DNA of 5,582 bases from Chloroflexota bacterium (lineage in GTDB: Bacteria; Chloroflexota; FW602-bin22; JACPRP01): assembly GCA_016210495.1 (NCBI GenBank), contig JACQUC010000089.1, positions 1 through 5,582 of the forward strand. The letters are read 5' to 3'. This document shows positions 2-5,089 of the stretch, piece after piece (position 1 is the first letter of the stretch; each line of letters begins with the position of its first letter). A program made the translations under genes and the position numbers. The notes below the pieces were generated by a model, which was not told where the DNA came from, ran no database searches, and was given only the letters and a program-made list of their open reading frames with translations.

Positions 2-346
2 ATCGGCGAAGCAGAGCGGACAAGCCATGTTGCAGGAACTGTTTACTTCGATGATCCCCACGCATACGTGCTGTTGATGATCGGGACAAAGGCCGCAATC
101 GTGGGGGCAACCGTTCTCTATCCCAGTCGTATGCTGGAGTGGAATCGTGCCTGGCTTGTTGAACTTTGCCGAGGAGGTATAAGCTTGCGCGTCGCCGTAG
201 AAAAGCGCCTCGAAATTGCCATGATCGGCACAGAGCTTGCGCAAGTAAACTCTGTTGTTACGCAAGATGATCTGAGCGTCGATGACTTGACGGCACTCCG
301 GGCAGACGCTGCGCGTGAGCTCGTAGAACACGTAGTTTACGCTTAG
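2..346 (+). CDS. C-terminal part of an unrecognised protein (5' end outside window)
   Basis: The frame is open from the left edge and ends at a TAG (344-346), giving about 114 visible residues, so the real start is probably outside the window. GTG at 68 and ATG at 77 are possible internal starts, but neither is needed because the coding look continues upstream to the edge. The visible protein has a hydrophobic stretch (YVLLMIGTKAAIVGATVLY), then a Trp/Arg-rich segment (MLEWNRAWLVELC), then a charged, probably helical C-terminus (DDLTALRADAARELVEH). No catalytic motif or family is recognisable to me. The acidic and helical tail looks like genuine protein rather than chance translation. A weak hairpin follows the stop. 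It has no evident link with the redox genes, which lie on the other strand. Confidence 0.5.
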   Translation: MGEAERTSHVAGTVYFDDPHAYVLLMIGTKAAIVGATVLYPSRMLEWNRAWLVELCRGGISLRVAVEKRLEIAMIGTELAQVNSVVTQDDLSVDDLTALRADAARELVEHVVYA

Positions 347-347
347 A

Positions 348-379
348 GCCGTCTTCTTTCCAAAGACTTCCGGCATTTT
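348..379 (+). terminator. weak hairpin after the first gene, possible terminator
   Basis: Two bases after the stop codon, GTCTT (351-355) pairs with AAGAC (363-367) across a 7-nt loop. An outer GCC/GGC (348-350 with 372-374) is possible across an asymmetric bulge, and ATTTT (375-379) follows. The stem is short and the T-run is only four bases, so this is a marginal intrinsic terminator. Confidence 0.25.
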
Positions 380-398
380 CCCCAGCTTCCCCCTTAAA

Positions 399-418
399 CA
401 TACCACCACATACCACCA
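399..418. repeat. tandem 10-bp direct repeat, two copies
   Basis: CATACCACCA occurs twice in immediate succession (399-408 and 409-418). The 10-bp period puts both copies on the same face of the helix. It may be a fortuitous short duplication. There is no adjacent promoter or gene start that would identify it as an operator. Confidence 0.7.
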
Positions 419-661: not shown

Positions 662-2068
662 CTACCGCCGCACCAAAACACTCAGCAATCGCTTCCTCCA
701 GCCATTGATGAGGCGTGACGCGACCGCTTCTGCGCTGGCCTGCTGAATTCCAAAGCCGTAGGTCGGGTAGGCATGAATTGTTGTCGCAATGTGACTCACG
801 TTCAGTCGCTTCTCGATCGCCAGCGACAATTCGTTGATCAATTCGCCTGCGGAGCTTGCTACTACTGTCCCACCCAAGAGCCTGCCATTTGGACCGGTAA
901 TTAGTTTCAGAAACCCATCGTGTTCGCCTTCTGTCTGCGCCCGGTCGATGCGTTCGAGAGGCCACCGGTGAACCTTTGTCGGCATATTCTCGTCACGTGA
1001 CTGCTTCTCGCTGATCCCAACTTGCCCAATCTCCGGGTCAGTGAAGACCACCCATGGAACCGTTGGGCGGATTCCTCGGCTGGAGCCTGGAAGTAGTGCG
1101 TTGCGCGCAGCCATTGCGCCTTGCCAGCCGGCGTAATGAGAGAATTGAAAACTCCCTATTACGTCGCCACACGCGTAAATGTGTCTCTGACTGGTGTGCA
1201 AGTGGGCATCTACTCTGATCCCTTGAGCAGTGTAATCGATTTCAGCGCGTTCCAGCTCCAGGCCGCCGACGTTGGGCCAGCGCCCAACGGCTACCAGGAG
1301 AGCATCTCCCGCGCACTCCTCTTTGCCCGCGAAGGCGAGTAGGGCGCCGTCTCGGCTCTCGATCTTTGTGACCTCAGCACCTGTCAGGATTCGCACGCCA
1401 TCCGCGGACAACTGGTCGGCCAGCACGGCGCTGGCTTCCCGATCGGCGATTGGCAGAATGCGATCGGGTCGCCCTATCAACGTCACGGACGAGCCCAACC
1501 GCTGGAATGCCTGGGCTAATTCGACGCCAACAGGACCAGCGCCAAGAACTATTAGGCGACGAGGGAGTTCCTCAAGACCAAAGATGCTCTCATAGGTTAG
1601 ACAGGGTGTATCGGCCAAACCCGGGATAGTTGGAAAAAAGGGATTGGCCCCGGTGCAAATGATGAAATGTTTAGCATGGATAACGCGTCCGTCGACGCTG
1701 ATTTTGGTCGGATCGACAAAACGGGGCGCTCCGAGGATCACATCGATCCCTTTCGCGCCCAGCGCCTCTGGTGTCTCGAACTGGTAGACGCTCTCGATAA
1801 CCCCCCGAACTCGGGCCATAACCCGTTTCAGATCGATAGTAGGATATACTGGAGGCAGGCCGAATTCGGCCGCTCGTCGCATATCCTGCGCCACTTTCGC
1901 AGCCTTGAGCAATGCTTTGCTCGGCACACAACCCGTCCAGGTGCAGTCCCCACCGATGCGATGCCGCTCCACCAGGGCTACCCGTGCGCCTAACCTTGCC
2001 GCAAATGAGGCTGCTGTCAGGCCGGCAGACCCCGCGCCAATGACGACTAAGTCGTAGTTGGGTGACAC
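662..2068 (-). CDS. MerA-like FAD/NAD(P)-dependent disulfide oxidoreductase
   Basis: A class I pyridine nucleotide-disulfide oxidoreductase, related to mercuric reductase and dihydrolipoamide dehydrogenase, probably cytosolic. Numbered from the GTG at 2068 (468 aa, normal family length), it has the N-terminal FAD motif VIGAGSAG (9-16), redox-active Cys42 and Cys47 in GGDCTWTGCVPSK, the NAD(P) Rossmann motif GAGPVGVE (176-183), the second FAD contact ACGD (299-302), and a dimerisation domain with His432 in HAYPTYG. The His is the expected base, but the usual Glu partner of the HPT-x-x-E motif is not there. It lacks the N-terminal heavy-metal domain and the C-terminal Cys pair of true MerA (the protein ends VLVRR), so mercury reduction is not established. 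A TTG at 2074 would add two residues. Neither start has a strong ribosome site. It lies 14 nt (8 nt from TTG) after the upstream reductase gene, so the two are surely co-transcribed. Confidence 0.9.
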   Translation of the reverse strand: MSPNYDLVVIGAGSAGLTAASFAARLGARVALVERHRIGGDCTWTGCVPSKALLKAAKVAQDMRRAAEFGLPPVYPTIDLKRVMARVRGVIESVYQFETPEALGAKGIDVILGAPRFVDPTKISVDGRVIHAKHFIICTGANPFFPTIPGLADTPCLTYESIFGLEELPRRLIVLGAGPVGVELAQAFQRLGSSVTLIGRPDRILPIADREASAVLADQLSADGVRILTGAEVTKIESRDGALLAFAGKEECAGDALLVAVGRWPNVGGLELERAEIDYTAQGIRVDAHLHTSQRHIYACGDVIGSFQFSHYAGWQGAMAARNALLPGSSRGIRPTVPWVVFTDPEIGQVGISEKQSRDENMPTKVHRWPLERIDRAQTEGEHDGFLKLITGPNGRLLGGTVVASSAGELINELSLAIEKRLNVSHIATTIHAYPTYGFGIQQASAEAVASRLINGWRKRLLSVLVRR

Positions 2069-2082
2069 TCTCAATTGCCCGC

Positions 2083-3291
2083 TCAGTCGTTTCTGCTGCT
2101 CGGCAGCACCTTAGCGCTTTGGAGGAAGTGGCGAATCATCAATGCCGATGCCGCTCCCTCACCCGCCGCGCTTACCAGTTGCTTGGTGCTGCCCTTTCGC
2201 GCGTCGCCCGCGGCGAACACGTTCGGCATGTTGGTTCGGAAAGAGCTATCGGTAACGATAAATCCCATATCGTCGAGTTCGACAGAGCCTTTCAGCCATT
2301 TGGTGTTGGGCTCCAGGCCGATGAAGACAAATACCCCGCTGCAGGCGACCTCGTTCGTCTCGCCGGTCCTCACGTTGCGGATCACTACCGACGAGAGGCG
2401 CGCCTTGCCCCGAAACTCAGCCACAACTGTCTCATAATGCACCGCGATTTTCGGACTGGCAAGCGCCTTTTCTCGAGCAACTGCGCTTGCTGTGAGCTGG
2501 GTGCCACGGTAGGCAATGTTGACTTTGCGCGCAAACTTGGTGAGGAAGACAGCCTCCTCGACGGCCGAGTTTCCGCCGCCGACGACCAGGACCTCCTGAT
2601 CTTTGTAGAAAGGCCCATCGCAGGTAGCGCAGAAGTGTACGCCCGCCCCAATAAAATCTTCTTCCCCGGGAACTCCCAGCCGCCGATACTTCGAGCCGGG
2701 AGCAAGCAGGATGGCACGACAACTTGCCCGCTGCCCGTTCGCAAACCCGACCCAGCAGTCCTCCCCGTCCAATCCCATCGCCGTGACCTCCGTTGCCGAC
2801 AGCATTTCGACGCCAAACTGGCGACACTGCTGGACCAGGCGTTCGGCGAATTCCGCTCCCGTTACGCCTTCCGGAAAGCCGGGGTAATTGTCTATCCGCT
2901 CGGTGACACCCGCCTGGCCACCAAGCGCGCTTCGCTCTACGACCAGGGTCTCGATCTTCTCGCGGGCAGTGTATAGCGCAGCGGTCAGCGCCGCTGGTCC
3001 ACCTCCGATGATTATCAGGTCGTAGTATGGGCAGCTTGGGGAAGTCTGAAGCCCGAGCTTCGCCGCCAGGTCGGCATTCGATGGCTCGACCATTACAGAG
3101 CCATCGGGAAAAAGGATGGTGGGGACGATTCGCTTACCCCGGTTCACTTTCTCGACGATGCGCAACCCGCCCTGGTCCTCCTCTACGTCGATGAACTGAT
3201 AGCGCACGCGATGCTCGCCAAAGAACTTCTTGGCCCTCTTGCAGTCGATGCACCAGGTGGTACCGTACATCCGGATGCCGTCGTTATCCAT
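2083..3291 (-). CDS. trxB: glutaredoxin-thioredoxin reductase fusion protein
   Basis: A 402-residue cytosolic flavoprotein joining an N-terminal mycoredoxin-like glutaredoxin (about 5-80) to a complete thioredoxin reductase (about 90-392). The first domain has Cys14 and Cys17 (TTWCIDCKRAK), the cis-Pro of IVPT (56-59) and FPDGS. The second has the FAD motif GGGPAALTAA (96-105), GGQAG, the redox pair CATC (221-224), the nucleotide motif GGGNSAVEEA (238-247) and the FAD contact AAGD (360-363). The attached redoxin is probably the reductase's own substrate or electron carrier. The usual HRRxxxR signature that binds the NADPH 2'-phosphate reads YRGTQLT (261-267), which suggests altered cofactor preference. 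I chose ATG 3291 because AAGGA (3304-3300) lies 8 nt upstream. ATG 3300 would have its purine tract touching the start. The frame stays open upstream to 3534, but that part is repeat and regulatory DNA. It is first in a two-gene operon with the MerA-like reductase. Confidence 0.92.
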   Translation of the reverse strand: MDNDGIRMYGTTWCIDCKRAKKFFGEHRVRYQFIDVEEDQGGLRIVEKVNRGKRIVPTILFPDGSVMVEPSNADLAAKLGLQTSPSCPYYDLIIIGGGPAALTAALYTAREKIETLVVERSALGGQAGVTERIDNYPGFPEGVTGAEFAERLVQQCRQFGVEMLSATEVTAMGLDGEDCWVGFANGQRASCRAILLAPGSKYRRLGVPGEEDFIGAGVHFCATCDGPFYKDQEVLVVGGGNSAVEEAVFLTKFARKVNIAYRGTQLTASAVAREKALASPKIAVHYETVVAEFRGKARLSSVVIRNVRTGETNEVACSGVFVFIGLEPNTKWLKGSVELDDMGFIVTDSSFRTNMPNVFAAGDARKGSTKQLVSAAGEGAASALMIRHFLQSAKVLPSSRND

Positions 3292-3299
3292 ACCGTCCA

Positions 3300-3304
3300 T
3301 CCTT
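3300..3304 (-). promoter_or_regulatory. ribosome binding site deciding the reductase-fusion start
   Basis: On the minus strand AAGGA lies 8 nt before the ATG at 3291. The alternative ATG at 3300 overlaps this sequence and has no properly spaced site of its own, so translation most likely begins at 3291. Confidence 0.5.
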
Positions 3305-3343
3305 CCCGAATTCGTTTCCCTTGTGCTCTTGATCAATCGTACC

Positions 3344-3352
3344 AGAATATCA
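3344..3352 (-). promoter_or_regulatory. candidate extended -10 promoter of the reductase operon
   Basis: Reading the minus strand, TGATATTCT fits an extended -10 element (TG-n-TATTCT). Transcription would start near 3337 and leave a leader of about 45 nt before the ATG at 3291. No good -35 hexamer is seen 16-18 nt upstream, which is tolerable for an extended -10. The 8-bp palindrome TTGATCAA (3329-3336) would sit just at the start point and could be an operator. Confidence 0.3.
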
Positions 3353-3476
3353 CACTGAGCGCACACCTGTTTGTAGCGTAGCTGACAGAACGTCTTTGTC
3401 TTCGGGAGACGCGACACCAGAGCGAGGGAATAAAAGCCGGGTATTTGGTGTTGTATCTGTGTGTAGAGACGGGGCC

Positions 3477-3518
3477 GACATCTCGATGGAATCGGATCCC
3501 GGCCGGGGACGCCCCTAC
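3477..3518. repeat. dispersed palindromic repeat, copy 1
   Basis: This segment matches 4542-4587 closely, sharing GATGGAATCGG, ATCCCGGC and GGGACGCCCCTAC with a few short indels. It contains two small hairpins, CGAT-GGA-ATCG (3484-3494) and TCCC-GGCCG-GGGA (3497-3509), and ends in CGCCCCTAC (3510-3518). It behaves like a non-coding REP- or MITE-like intergenic repeat. Confidence 0.8.
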
Positions 3519-3548
3519 AGGTTGCATTTCGCACCGAACACGAGTCAA

Positions 3549-3566
3549 CTGTAGTTCAGACTACAG
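3549..3566. promoter_or_regulatory. perfect 7-bp inverted repeat, candidate operator
   Basis: CTGTAGT (3549-3555) and ACTACAG (3560-3566) are exact inverted repeats around TCAG. The centre lies about 40 bp upstream of the start point predicted from the TATAAT box, the usual position for an activator that contacts polymerase next to -35. The poor -35 hexamer (ACAGAG, overlapping the right arm) agrees with dependence on an activator, but a repressor would also fit. The regulator family cannot be named from the site. Confidence 0.5.
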
Positions 3567-3585
3567 AGTTACCTGGAGGATGCGC

Positions 3586-3591
3586 TATAAT
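3586..3591 (+). promoter_or_regulatory. consensus -10 box of the glutaredoxin/MerT-like gene
   Basis: A perfect TATAAT with no matching -35 at 17 bp. Transcription would begin near 3598 and give a leader of about 40 nt before the GTG at 3637. It would also place the upstream ATG at 3580 outside the transcript. Confidence 0.5.
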
Positions 3592-3624
3592 TGGATCCTG
3601 GGATTCCCGGCGAGATCCATAGAA

Positions 3625-3630
3625 GCGGAG
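3625..3630 (+). promoter_or_regulatory. ribosome binding site supporting the GTG start at 3637
   Basis: GCGGAG ends 6 nt before the GTG. The only nearby ATG in frame (3580) has GGAGG directly touching it with no spacing, and would add 19 residues before the domain begins. Confidence 0.5.
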
Positions 3631-3636
3631 ATCATT

Positions 3637-4395
3637 GTGGTAAGCGAATCGATCACGGTGTACGCAACAGATTGGTGCGGCGACTGCCGTCGAGCGAAGC
3701 AGGTTCTCGACGAGCACGGGGCGAGCTATGACTGGATCGACATAGAAGCGGACCTGGAAGCCCAGGCCCTGGTTGTGCGGTTGAATGGCGGAATGAAGTC
3801 TGTGCCCACTATCGTCTTTCCGGATGGCTCGATTCTCACGGAGCCATCGAATCGGGAACTTTTGGCTCGATTGAATAGTCCGGCACGACATGGGTCTGTG
3901 GTAGGGGCGGTTCCTCCTTCTGCGGAAGGAGCCCTACCAGGCGATCAGGATGCAATTGCTATGGCGGTCCATCTGGACAAACCCGGCCCAAAGATGGACG
4001 AGAAGGCTCCTGAGCCGGTTGACGCTGGCGCCAGCGCTCCGTCTCACTGGAAAGGGAGAACGATAGCGTCCGGCATAACTGGCTCGGTCATCGCCAGCTT
4101 TTGCTGCCTCCCGACGGCGCTGGCGATCGCGCTGGGCTTGAGTCTGAGCACCGCCGCGACGTTAAGTCAGTTGTTGGCGTATCAGCGGGCCTTCCAGTTG
4201 GCGGGGTTGGTCTTCGCCGGGCTCGCCACGTGGTGGATACTGCGTCGAAGCCGCTCGACCTGTGGCTTATCAGCACGCCAGCGCGAGCGGGTGCCACTGT
4301 TCGTTTTGGGGGCGTTTGCGGCGGGCTTCGCCACGTTGAATGTGGCGGTGATCCCGTTGCTCGAGCGGCTTCCGTGGCTGCTGGCCGGGCGATAG
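3637..4395 (+). CDS. glutaredoxin domain fused to MerT-like three-helix membrane protein
   Basis: A 252-residue inner-membrane protein. Residues 5-80 are a mycoredoxin-like glutaredoxin with Cys14 and Cys17 (TDWCGDCRRAK), cis-Pro57 (SVPT) and FPDGS, clearly paralogous to the domain on the divergent reductase. A Pro/Ala/acid-rich linker (81-140) follows. Three hydrophobic segments lie at about 143-169, 184-203 and 219-241. The first contains the vicinal pair Cys156-Cys157 in IASFCCLPTALAIALG, matching in position and context the first helix of the mercuric transporter MerT, whose Cys pair takes Hg(II). Cys209 follows helix 2, where MerT has its second Cys pair, so only one of those two is kept. 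There is no signal peptide, so the redoxin should be cytosolic. The likely role is metal or thiol transfer across the membrane to the redoxin, but the substrate is unproven. The linker is partly encoded by a palindromic repeat (3901-3937). The GTG start is chosen from the ribosome site and domain boundary. Confidence 0.85.
   Translation: MVSESITVYATDWCGDCRRAKQVLDEHGASYDWIDIEADLEAQALVVRLNGGMKSVPTIVFPDGSILTEPSNRELLARLNSPARHGSVVGAVPPSAEGALPGDQDAIAMAVHLDKPGPKMDEKAPEPVDAGASAPSHWKGRTIASGITGSVIASFCCLPTALAIALGLSLSTAATLSQLLAYQRAFQLAGLVFAGLATWWILRRSRSTCGLSARQRERVPLFVLGAFAAGFATLNVAVIPLLERLPWLLAGR
3901..3937. repeat. palindromic repeat inside the coding sequence (linker)
   Basis: CTCCTTC (3914-3920) pairs perfectly with GAAGGAG (3925-3931) across a TGCG loop, and GTAGGG (3901-3906) pairs with CCCTAC (3932-3937) outside it, leaving 3907-3913 unpaired. 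The left end GTAGGGGCG is the complement of the CGCCCCTAC end of the intergenic repeats in this window. It encodes about residues 89-101 of the interdomain linker, reading VGAVPPSAEGALP, without breaking the frame. Confidence 0.7.
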
Positions 4396-4410
4396 GCGGT
4401 TCGATGGCGT

Positions 4411-4506
4411 GCAGCCTGTAGGAATGTGCTTAGCTGCCTCGCCAATGATTTCCAAGCGCCGGATCACGGCGTCCTGCGGCTCTGGTAGTTTGCGCCAGAT
4501 TGCAGA
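4411..4506 (-). pseudogene. remnant of a HepT-family (DUF86) toxin gene
   Basis: On the minus strand this reads IWRKLPEPQDAVIRRLEII followed by GEAAKHIPTG. The core QDAVIRRLEIIGEAAK is the conserved helix of HepT-like HEPN ribonucleases of the MntA-HepT toxin-antitoxin systems. Only about 30 residues survive. The rest, including the catalytic R-x4-6-H motif expected downstream, is missing, because the sequence runs directly into the 3' end of the glutaredoxin/MerT-like gene on the opposite strand. Upstream the frame has no HepT N-terminus and enters repeat DNA. It is therefore a vestige without function, marking a past rearrangement. The match is from memory of the family, but the motif is distinctive. 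Confidence 0.6.
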
Positions 4507-4541
4507 GCGCCTGAGCCCAACCCCACCCCAGGGCGGACAGC

Positions 4542-4587
4542 GGACGTCTCCCGATGGAATCGGGATCCCGGCTCGGGACGCCCCTAC
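4542..4587. repeat. dispersed palindromic repeat, copy 2
   Basis: The more regular of the two long copies. TCCCGAT-GGA-ATCGGGA (4549-4565) is a perfect 7-bp hairpin, followed at once by TCCCG-GCT-CGGGA (4566-4578) and the end motif CGCCCCTAC (4579-4587). It lies between the HepT remnant and the surface-protein remnant. A third CGCCCCTAC occurs at 5230-5238 without the rest of the element. Confidence 0.8.
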
Positions 4588-4628
4588 GTTTCTGCAATGG
4601 TCCGTACAGTGTCGACATTCAAGGCAGA

Positions 4629-4642
4629 GACTTGGGGAAGTC
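4629..4642. terminator. small hairpin beyond the surface-protein remnant
   Basis: GACTT-GGGG-AAGTC is a perfect 5-bp stem starting 9 nt past the minus-strand stop codon at 4652. No T-run follows on the minus strand, so termination activity is doubtful. Confidence 0.2.
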
Positions 4643-4651
4643 CCGAGGGGG

Positions 4652-5089
4652 TCAGTTCTTGTATATACCGGGCAGAAAGAGCGGGGAAACGGTACGCTGG
4701 CCCACGAGGGCGAACTCGCCAACGCGGCATATGGGCAGCGCGATGCGGTTCTCGGTGGGATAGCGGGTGTAAGCGGAAGTGGGCGTGCAGGTGGTCGAGG
4801 CGTCCTGCCACTGGGTGCCGCTCCAGTACAGCAGGGCAAGCTGGTTTTCGTCCATGCCGAGGACGTCGGCGGCACTGTAGTAGACGGTGGTGACGACAGG
4901 GGCACTGAATTGGAAGCCGGGTATCACGGTGCCGGCGGGATAGGCCAGGGCGTCGAGGCTGAAGGCGTGCCCGGCAGAGCTCAAGGCCGCCGTGAGGGCG
5001 TTGGAGGGCCGGCGCAGCGCGGTGAAATCCAGCATCGTCGTGCTCGTGACCGAGTCGATGGCCGACCGGACGGTGGTGGTCAACGCCCG
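4652..5089 (-). pseudogene. C-terminal remnant of an exported surface protein
   Basis: About 145 residues read as a typical C-terminal beta-rich module of large exported proteins: SSAGHAFSLDA, then IPGFQFSAPV, YYSAADVLGMDENQLALLYW, SGTQWQDA, a pair Cys-Thr-Pro and ICRVGEFALVG, closing with SPLFLPGIYKN before the TGA. The final Leu-Pro and Lys-Asn tail resembles endings I recall on Chloroflexota cell-surface proteins, possibly a sorting or anchoring signal. No signal peptide or N-terminal domains exist. The frame stays open to 5257, but residues before about 5089 are translated from GC-rich repeats, and the only convincing ATG inside (5035) would begin within the fold. It is best seen as a 5'-truncated gene. 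A short expressed protein cannot be excluded. Confidence 0.6.

Follow-up and report, generated by a model that had tools for sequence, protein, structure and literature searches.

A glutaredoxin fused to a MerT-related membrane module in Chloroflexota

A gene from an uncultured Chloroflexota bacterium encodes, in a single chain, a mycoredoxin-type glutaredoxin joined to a three-helix membrane module that profile comparisons identify as a distant homolog of the mercury transporter MerT. The gene lies in a 5,582-nucleotide stretch of contig JACQUC010000089.1 (assembly GCA_016210495.1), hereafter the window. Because relatives share the fusion, we regard it as real and as an apparently unnamed architecture.

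Architecture, topology and selection

The fusion gene (3637..4395; this and all features of the gene given below are on the plus strand) encodes 252 residues between a GTG start at 3637 and a stop codon at 4393-4395, with a possible ribosome-binding site, read from the sequence as GGAG (3627..3630), 6 nt 5' of the GTG. A scan of window positions 3280-4700 returned no sigma-70-like promoter, and no Rfam family matched the window at its gathering score. A 25-nt direct repeat, 92% identical, is found at 3494-3518 and 4563-4587, on both sides of the gene.

The N-terminal domain (residues 1-82; 3637..3882) carries the redox motif Cys14-Gly-Asp-Cys17 (3676..3687) within WCGDC, as seen in the sequence and in alignments, and scores 49.5 bits against Pfam Glutaredoxin (PF00462; cut-off 22.9). 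With a confident glutaredoxin fold in the AlphaFold2 model, this bears out the CxxC redoxin domain proposed in the first-pass annotation of this DNA. The NCBIfam mycoredoxin model TIGR02200 is narrowly missed (88.4 bits versus a cut-off of 89.5), and the best match in fold comparison by Foldseek and VIA is the mycoredoxin Mrx1 (2lqo), 46% identical in the Foldseek alignment; the fold-comparison matches span residues 2-86 only, that is, the glutaredoxin part, and thus leave the membrane part uncovered. Mrx1 differs in being a single soluble domain, and the glutaredoxin of the fusion is called mycoredoxin-type for its sequence and fold. A weakly conserved linker of low model confidence follows (residues 83-138; 3883..4050), which AlphaFold2 leaves unstructured over residues 84-141. 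The MerT-related module (residues 139-252; 4051..4392), delimited by PF02411, by the profile A3 described below and by the AlphaFold2 model, comprises three membrane helices according to both hydropathy and the model, in which the helices span residues 139-169, 173-181/183-204 and 213-249 with a block pLDDT of 53-77. Within the first of them lie Cys156-Cys157 of a Cys-Cys-Leu-Pro (CCLP) motif (4102..4107), and Cys209 (4261..4263) sits in the loop, rich in Arg, that connects helices 2 and 3, both positions being supported by the alignment of relatives.

Averaged over 44 members, Lys plus Arg residues number 5.3 in the loop between helices 2 and 3, 1.1 in the loop between helices 1 and 2 and 2.0 before helix 1. 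By the positive-inside rule, the redoxin is therefore probably cytosolic, the side on which it had been placed earlier. In comparison with the closest ortholog, encoded at locus L001 of genome G001, 168 of 231 aligned codons encode an identical residue. The nonsynonymous divergence (dN) is 0.18 for the glutaredoxin, 0.10 for the membrane part and 0.77 for the linker, with a dS of 0.83 for the membrane part and values near saturation elsewhere, a pattern indicating purifying selection on the two domains and drift in the linker.

A modular family within the MerT superfamily

Relatives were collected in a first protein search (7999 candidates scored, 139 matches, the best 120 of the 139 being listed) and a second with the membrane part (7994 candidates scored, 91 matches). 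Among the listed matches of the first search, P0002-P0006 are full-length fusion relatives with 46-67% identity. Classification by motif was applied to 49 relatives from these two lists (P0001-P0009 and P0121-P0160); outside it stand P0010-P0120, mostly glutaredoxin matches by coverage and Pfam labels, and the more distant P0161-P0207 (six read from each group). The 49 comprise 10 Grx-MerT chains, 4 Trx-like-Grx-MerT chains, 2 Trx-like-MerT chains and 33 MerT-like proteins alone, so that glutaredoxin and MerT-like module share a chain in 14 and a different thioredoxin-like domain takes the glutaredoxin's place in 2. The fusion is thus best described from these sequences as one architecture of a modular family that also includes split ORFs. 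A third search, with the window membrane part against 1729 candidates under length limits that exclude short stand-alone proteins, yielded five proteins including the window's own, all with a glutaredoxin.

The CCLP motif is present in 47 of the 49 relatives, the exceptions (P0147, P0148) beginning downstream of it, and Cys156, Cys157, Leu158 and Pro159 are invariant in an alignment of nine. A loop cysteine accompanies the motif in 45 of these 47 (exceptions: P0143 and the broken P0009). Some relatives, e.g. P0003, have two loop cysteines; the window protein has Cys209 only. The N-terminus of P0007 contains no CxxC, and the membrane part looks broken or cut in P0009, P0145 and P0150. The close relatives named by their source (P0002, P0004, P0008) are all annotated as hypothetical proteins. 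Related glutaredoxins also occur in chains bearing methyltransferase Pfam labels (P0014, P0015, P0017-P0022, P0025, P0027, P0052, P0053).

The identical two-domain chain recurs in independent records, including a groundwater MAG (P0002), another NCBI Chloroflexi MAG (P0004) and entries from ENA, JGI and further sources, which rules out a frameshift or a chimeric chain. Of the three outcomes that would have overturned the first-pass annotation (a membrane part from an unrelated family, an unconserved Cys156-Cys157 pair, an artefactual chain), none was found. The fusion may have arisen once or repeatedly: on a 46-row tree, parsimony counts five changes and the starred branches force only one, with bootstrap values unsettled and P0008 scored as stand-alone despite its overlapping glutaredoxin ORF. 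Among 72,556 plasmid records, six match the fusion, every one in the glutaredoxin part only, and a plasmid search with P0008 gave no match. The full-length alignment A1 matches 245 of 400 Chloroflexota genomes, nearly all of those listed doing so through the glutaredoxin part, so this count says little about the fusion.

The membrane part matches Pfam MerT (PF02411) at E 1.1e-5, its 25.9 bits falling short of the 32.9-bit cut-off, and the window protein reaches 20.1 bits with the NCBIfam MerT model NF010314 (cut-off 150); by neither curated cut-off is it a MerT. The stand-alone relative P0008, at 33.6 bits, falls just above the Pfam cut-off. A3, a profile of 20 stand-alone MerT-like relatives, finds the canonical MerT of one genome, G202, at E 6.9e-12, a protein that itself scores 104.7 bits in Pfam MerT, and it matches at E 2.1e-11 an ORF of G063 that reads by eye as a MerTP fusion. 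At E<=0.001, 16/20 of its members match Pfam MerT and 16/20 match NF010314. Because A3 reaches canonical MerT and its members match the MerT models, we place the module in the MerT superfamily as a distant homolog, in keeping with the earlier view of the membrane part as MerT-like. Matches of 2/20 members to PF03772 Competence (best E 2e-4) were taken as chance matches of a membrane helix. No PDB sequence matched the membrane profile A2 up to E 1. Pfam MerT matches 15 of 400 Chloroflexota genomes at E<=0.01, two of them above the cut-off (G202, G162), and a family match at E 1e-6 occurs in 5 of 397 sampled genomes, with 10 or fewer candidates scored per genome, namely G001 (fused), G162 (split), G270, G202 and G063. 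Within the class of G001 it occurs in 3 of 29 genomes (G001, G162, G202).

Like MerT, the window protein has three helices, a vicinal cysteine pair midway in helix 1, a cysteine in the cytosolic loop and detectable profile homology. It differs in its scores below the cut-offs, in its N-terminal redoxin and in the lack of mer neighbors found in the window. The loop of Tn-type MerT has two cysteines (Cys76 and Cys82, according to PMC5715351), where the window protein has Cys209 alone. MerTP (NF033556) likewise embeds a MerT module in a fused chain, but it adds a C-terminal MerP-like domain (in the G063 ORF, a GCEGC domain judged by eye) in place of a glutaredoxin at the N-terminus, probably in the cytosol. 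NCBIfam names a further MerT-module fusion, the MerT/CopZ fusion-like selenoprotein (NF045683); by its model name it has a different partner domain and selenocysteine, and its match to the window protein is at chance level (E 0.13, 11.7 bits, cut-off 375). Fusions of glutaredoxin with thioredoxin reductase (Grx-TrxR), frequent among the listed matches of the first search, carry a related glutaredoxin but join it to a soluble flavoenzyme. No redoxin-MerT model appeared among the Pfam and NCBIfam matches of the window, loci and relatives, and no such fusion was recognized in the literature searched, most subscription papers being outside its reach. The architecture is therefore apparently unnamed, MerT fusions with other partners being already in NCBIfam; the earlier suggestion that no MerT with an N-terminal glutaredoxin had been described holds to this extent, although the fusion is not unique among its relatives.

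Genomic neighborhoods

Divergently from the fusion gene runs a gene for a 402-aa Grx-TrxR fusion (2083..3291, minus strand; Pfam and NCBIfam), the glutaredoxin of which is 46% identical to that of the Grx-MerT fusion. This homology accounts for a 51-nt inverted repeat (75%; 3076-3126 and 3802-3852) in the glutaredoxin-coding stretches of the two genes. Next to it lies a MerA-like FAD disulfide oxidoreductase (662..2074, minus strand) with 374.5 bits in the MerA model TIGR02053 (cut-off 454.45). It has no cysteine beyond residue 302 and hence no C-terminal vicinal pair, one signature held essential for MerA in PMC8261052 and PMC3466566. The pair is present in the MerA proteins of G270, G017 and G001 (contig C53), and by this test the window enzyme is not a MerA. 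At the contig end is the start of a radical SAM gene of TrsS/tetraether-lipid-synthase type (2..409, minus strand), the best NCBIfam matches of this cut piece being 114.9 and 111.1 bits against whole-protein cut-offs of 490 and 450. The window ORFs scanned with Pfam and NCBIfam include neither MerP nor MerR. A classic mer operon in the window was ruled out on the lack of both and of the C-terminal cysteine pair in the FAD enzyme.

In G001, the Grx-TrxR, FAD enzyme and radical SAM genes share synteny and 87% DNA identity with the window as far as window base 3318, where synteny ends and the divergent pairing with Grx-MerT is lost. The window contig may accordingly be a chimera with its junction between 3318 and 3637. 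The Grx-MerT gene of G001 is on another contig, at L001 (the contig of G001 C29), near rhodanese, deiodinase-like, PrdB-like, flavodoxin-like, Crp/Fnr and DVU_1556-type methyltransferase genes; none of these matches reaches its family cut-off. The deiodinase-like and PrdB-like frames (L001 2053-3667) look incomplete and are possible selenoprotein genes. Contig C53 of G001 holds a true merA (579.7 bits, above the cut-off, with C-terminal LSCCAS), preceded by MerP- and MerT-like frames recognized by eye (L080 1-2154), so the mercury genes of G001 are probably separate from its Grx-MerT. These frames have in-frame TGA codons at cysteine positions (T*VSC; SSIC*LGVP), and the stretch looks like a selenocysteine mer operon. 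SelB is above cut-off in both G001 and G162. PMC9312934 already lists a MerT that is a selenoprotein.

The glutaredoxin and MerT-like protein of G162 are separate ORFs with a four-base overlap, the former preceded by a short, Trx-like-looking stretch; downstream of the pair come Crp/Fnr, sulphur transport (PF04143, also known as YeeE/YedE) and rhodanese genes. No MerA above the cut-off was found in this genome, which is of unstated completeness. Locus L034 encodes a rhodanese and an AhpC-TSA/thioredoxin-type protein with WCPPC; both, like the L001 rhodanese, are lipoproteins by eye. The scanned ORFs of L001 and L034 include no MerP or MerR, and none of MerP, MerA and MerR is encoded with the module among the scanned ORFs of the window, L001 or L034. 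In one run of G270 genes, a MerA (C-terminal SCCVE) and an adjacent MerP-like HMA protein, by eye a lipoprotein, precede a family member (A3 E 1.4e-24).

Candidate functions

We give an even chance to the reading that the fusion imports a thiophilic metal species, whether Hg(II) or another soft ion, as a MerT relative equipped with a cytosolic thiol partner of its own; the MerT homology and the G270 locus are what favor this reading. In the view set out in PMC5715351, Hg(II) is taken up by MerT at Cys24-Cys25, the counterpart of the CCLP pair and required for Hg(II) transport, and goes on to the loop cysteines and then to MerA. In the fusion, Cys156-Cys157 would be the entry point of the ion and Cys209, at the cytosolic face, its next stop, from which the glutaredoxin CxxC (Cys14/Cys17) would accept it on its flexible tether; by analogy with MerT, these cysteines could be an ordered series of thiols leading across the membrane. 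The glutaredoxin would hand the ion to a cytosolic reductase or thiol, re-reduce the transporter cysteines, or both, and would do the job that falls to a second loop cysteine in Tn501-type MerT and, in some MerA proteins, to an N-terminal metal-binding domain. The sequence data show the domains, the conserved cysteines, the MerT homology and the selection on both domains; topology, substrate and direction, like each transfer step, are what we infer under this import reading. Also speaking for it are the conserved CCLP and loop cysteines, the charge distribution of the loops, the purifying selection on both domains and the recurrence of redoxin partners (Grx in 14 of the 49 and a Trx-like domain without Grx in 2, and one overlapping-ORF pair). 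A precedent comes from Synechocystis, where Grx1 binds to a MerA-like enzyme, restores its activity and gives protection from Hg (PMC4307280).

Several observations count against import: the lack of MerP and MerR among the scanned ORFs of the window, L001 and L034, the FAD enzyme without its Cys-Cys pair, the separate merA locus of G001, G162 without a MerA above cut-off, the Grx-TrxR pairing not kept in G001, the window scores below the MerT cut-offs, the 33 of 49 relatives without a fused redoxin, and the L001 and L034 neighbors, for which sulfur or selenium chemistry is at least as good a reading. The mercury interpretation of the first-pass annotation thus survives as MerT homology and is weakened for mercury as the substrate, by the scores, by the window's neighbors and by the mercury genes that G001 carries elsewhere.

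As fused partners, the module has two kinds of redoxin (Grx and Trx-like CPxC) rather than metal-binding HMA domains, as would suit the main rival reading, a transmembrane thiol or electron relay with a DsbD/CcdA-like role on a MerT scaffold, in which electrons would run from NADPH through thioredoxin reductase, cytosolic glutaredoxin, Cys209 and Cys156-Cys157 to extracytoplasmic thiol proteins. The divergent Grx-TrxR gene in the window and the putative lipoproteins of L034 and L001 would fit such a relay, but the Grx-TrxR linkage is lost in G001, the G270 family member adjoins MerA and MerP, and we know of no MerT that carries electrons; we consider the relay unlikely. Flow from thioredoxin reductase to glutaredoxin is known in Synechocystis (PMC4307280). 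Still more doubtful is the specific proposal that the helix-1 cysteine pair and the loop cysteine make up a minimal three-helix thiol relay that links the cytosolic glutaredoxin pool with the exterior and takes electrons, perhaps also soft metals, through the membrane. It also seems improbable that the glutaredoxin serves protection only, freeing the transporter cysteines of low-molecular-weight thiols or disulfides with no role in metal hand-off. Grx1 does reactivate glutathionylated MerA in Synechocystis (PMC4307280), and the 33 of 49 relatives without a fused redoxin imply that it is not essential for the membrane module. A soluble glutaredoxin could suffice for protection, however, and the fused, split and Trx-fusion forms suggest closer coupling, gene context having been seen for a minority of the stand-alone members. 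We hold it very unlikely that the protein handles sulfur or selenium (persulfide, selenide or organometal species) in selenocysteine-using Chloroflexota, as might be suggested by the sulphur transport and rhodanese genes near the G162 pair, the rhodanese, PrdB-like, deiodinase-like and methyltransferase genes of L001, the Crp/Fnr and rhodanese genes common to L001 and L034, SelB in G001 and G162, and the TrsS-type piece in the window. That argument draws on the context of two relatives only, and rhodanese and Crp/Fnr are absent from the short window and placed differently in L001 and L034.

In a conserved redoxin-MerT fusion, cysteine mutants can tell metal hand-off, thiol protection and electron relay apart within one chain. 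The fusion bears on how MerT-type proteins hand cargo to the cytosol and on the variety of their partner domains; were the relay true, MerT-type membrane modules would not be only metal channels. It also represents a branch of the MerT superfamily, apparently without a name, in Chloroflexota, a group with some selenocysteine-using members.
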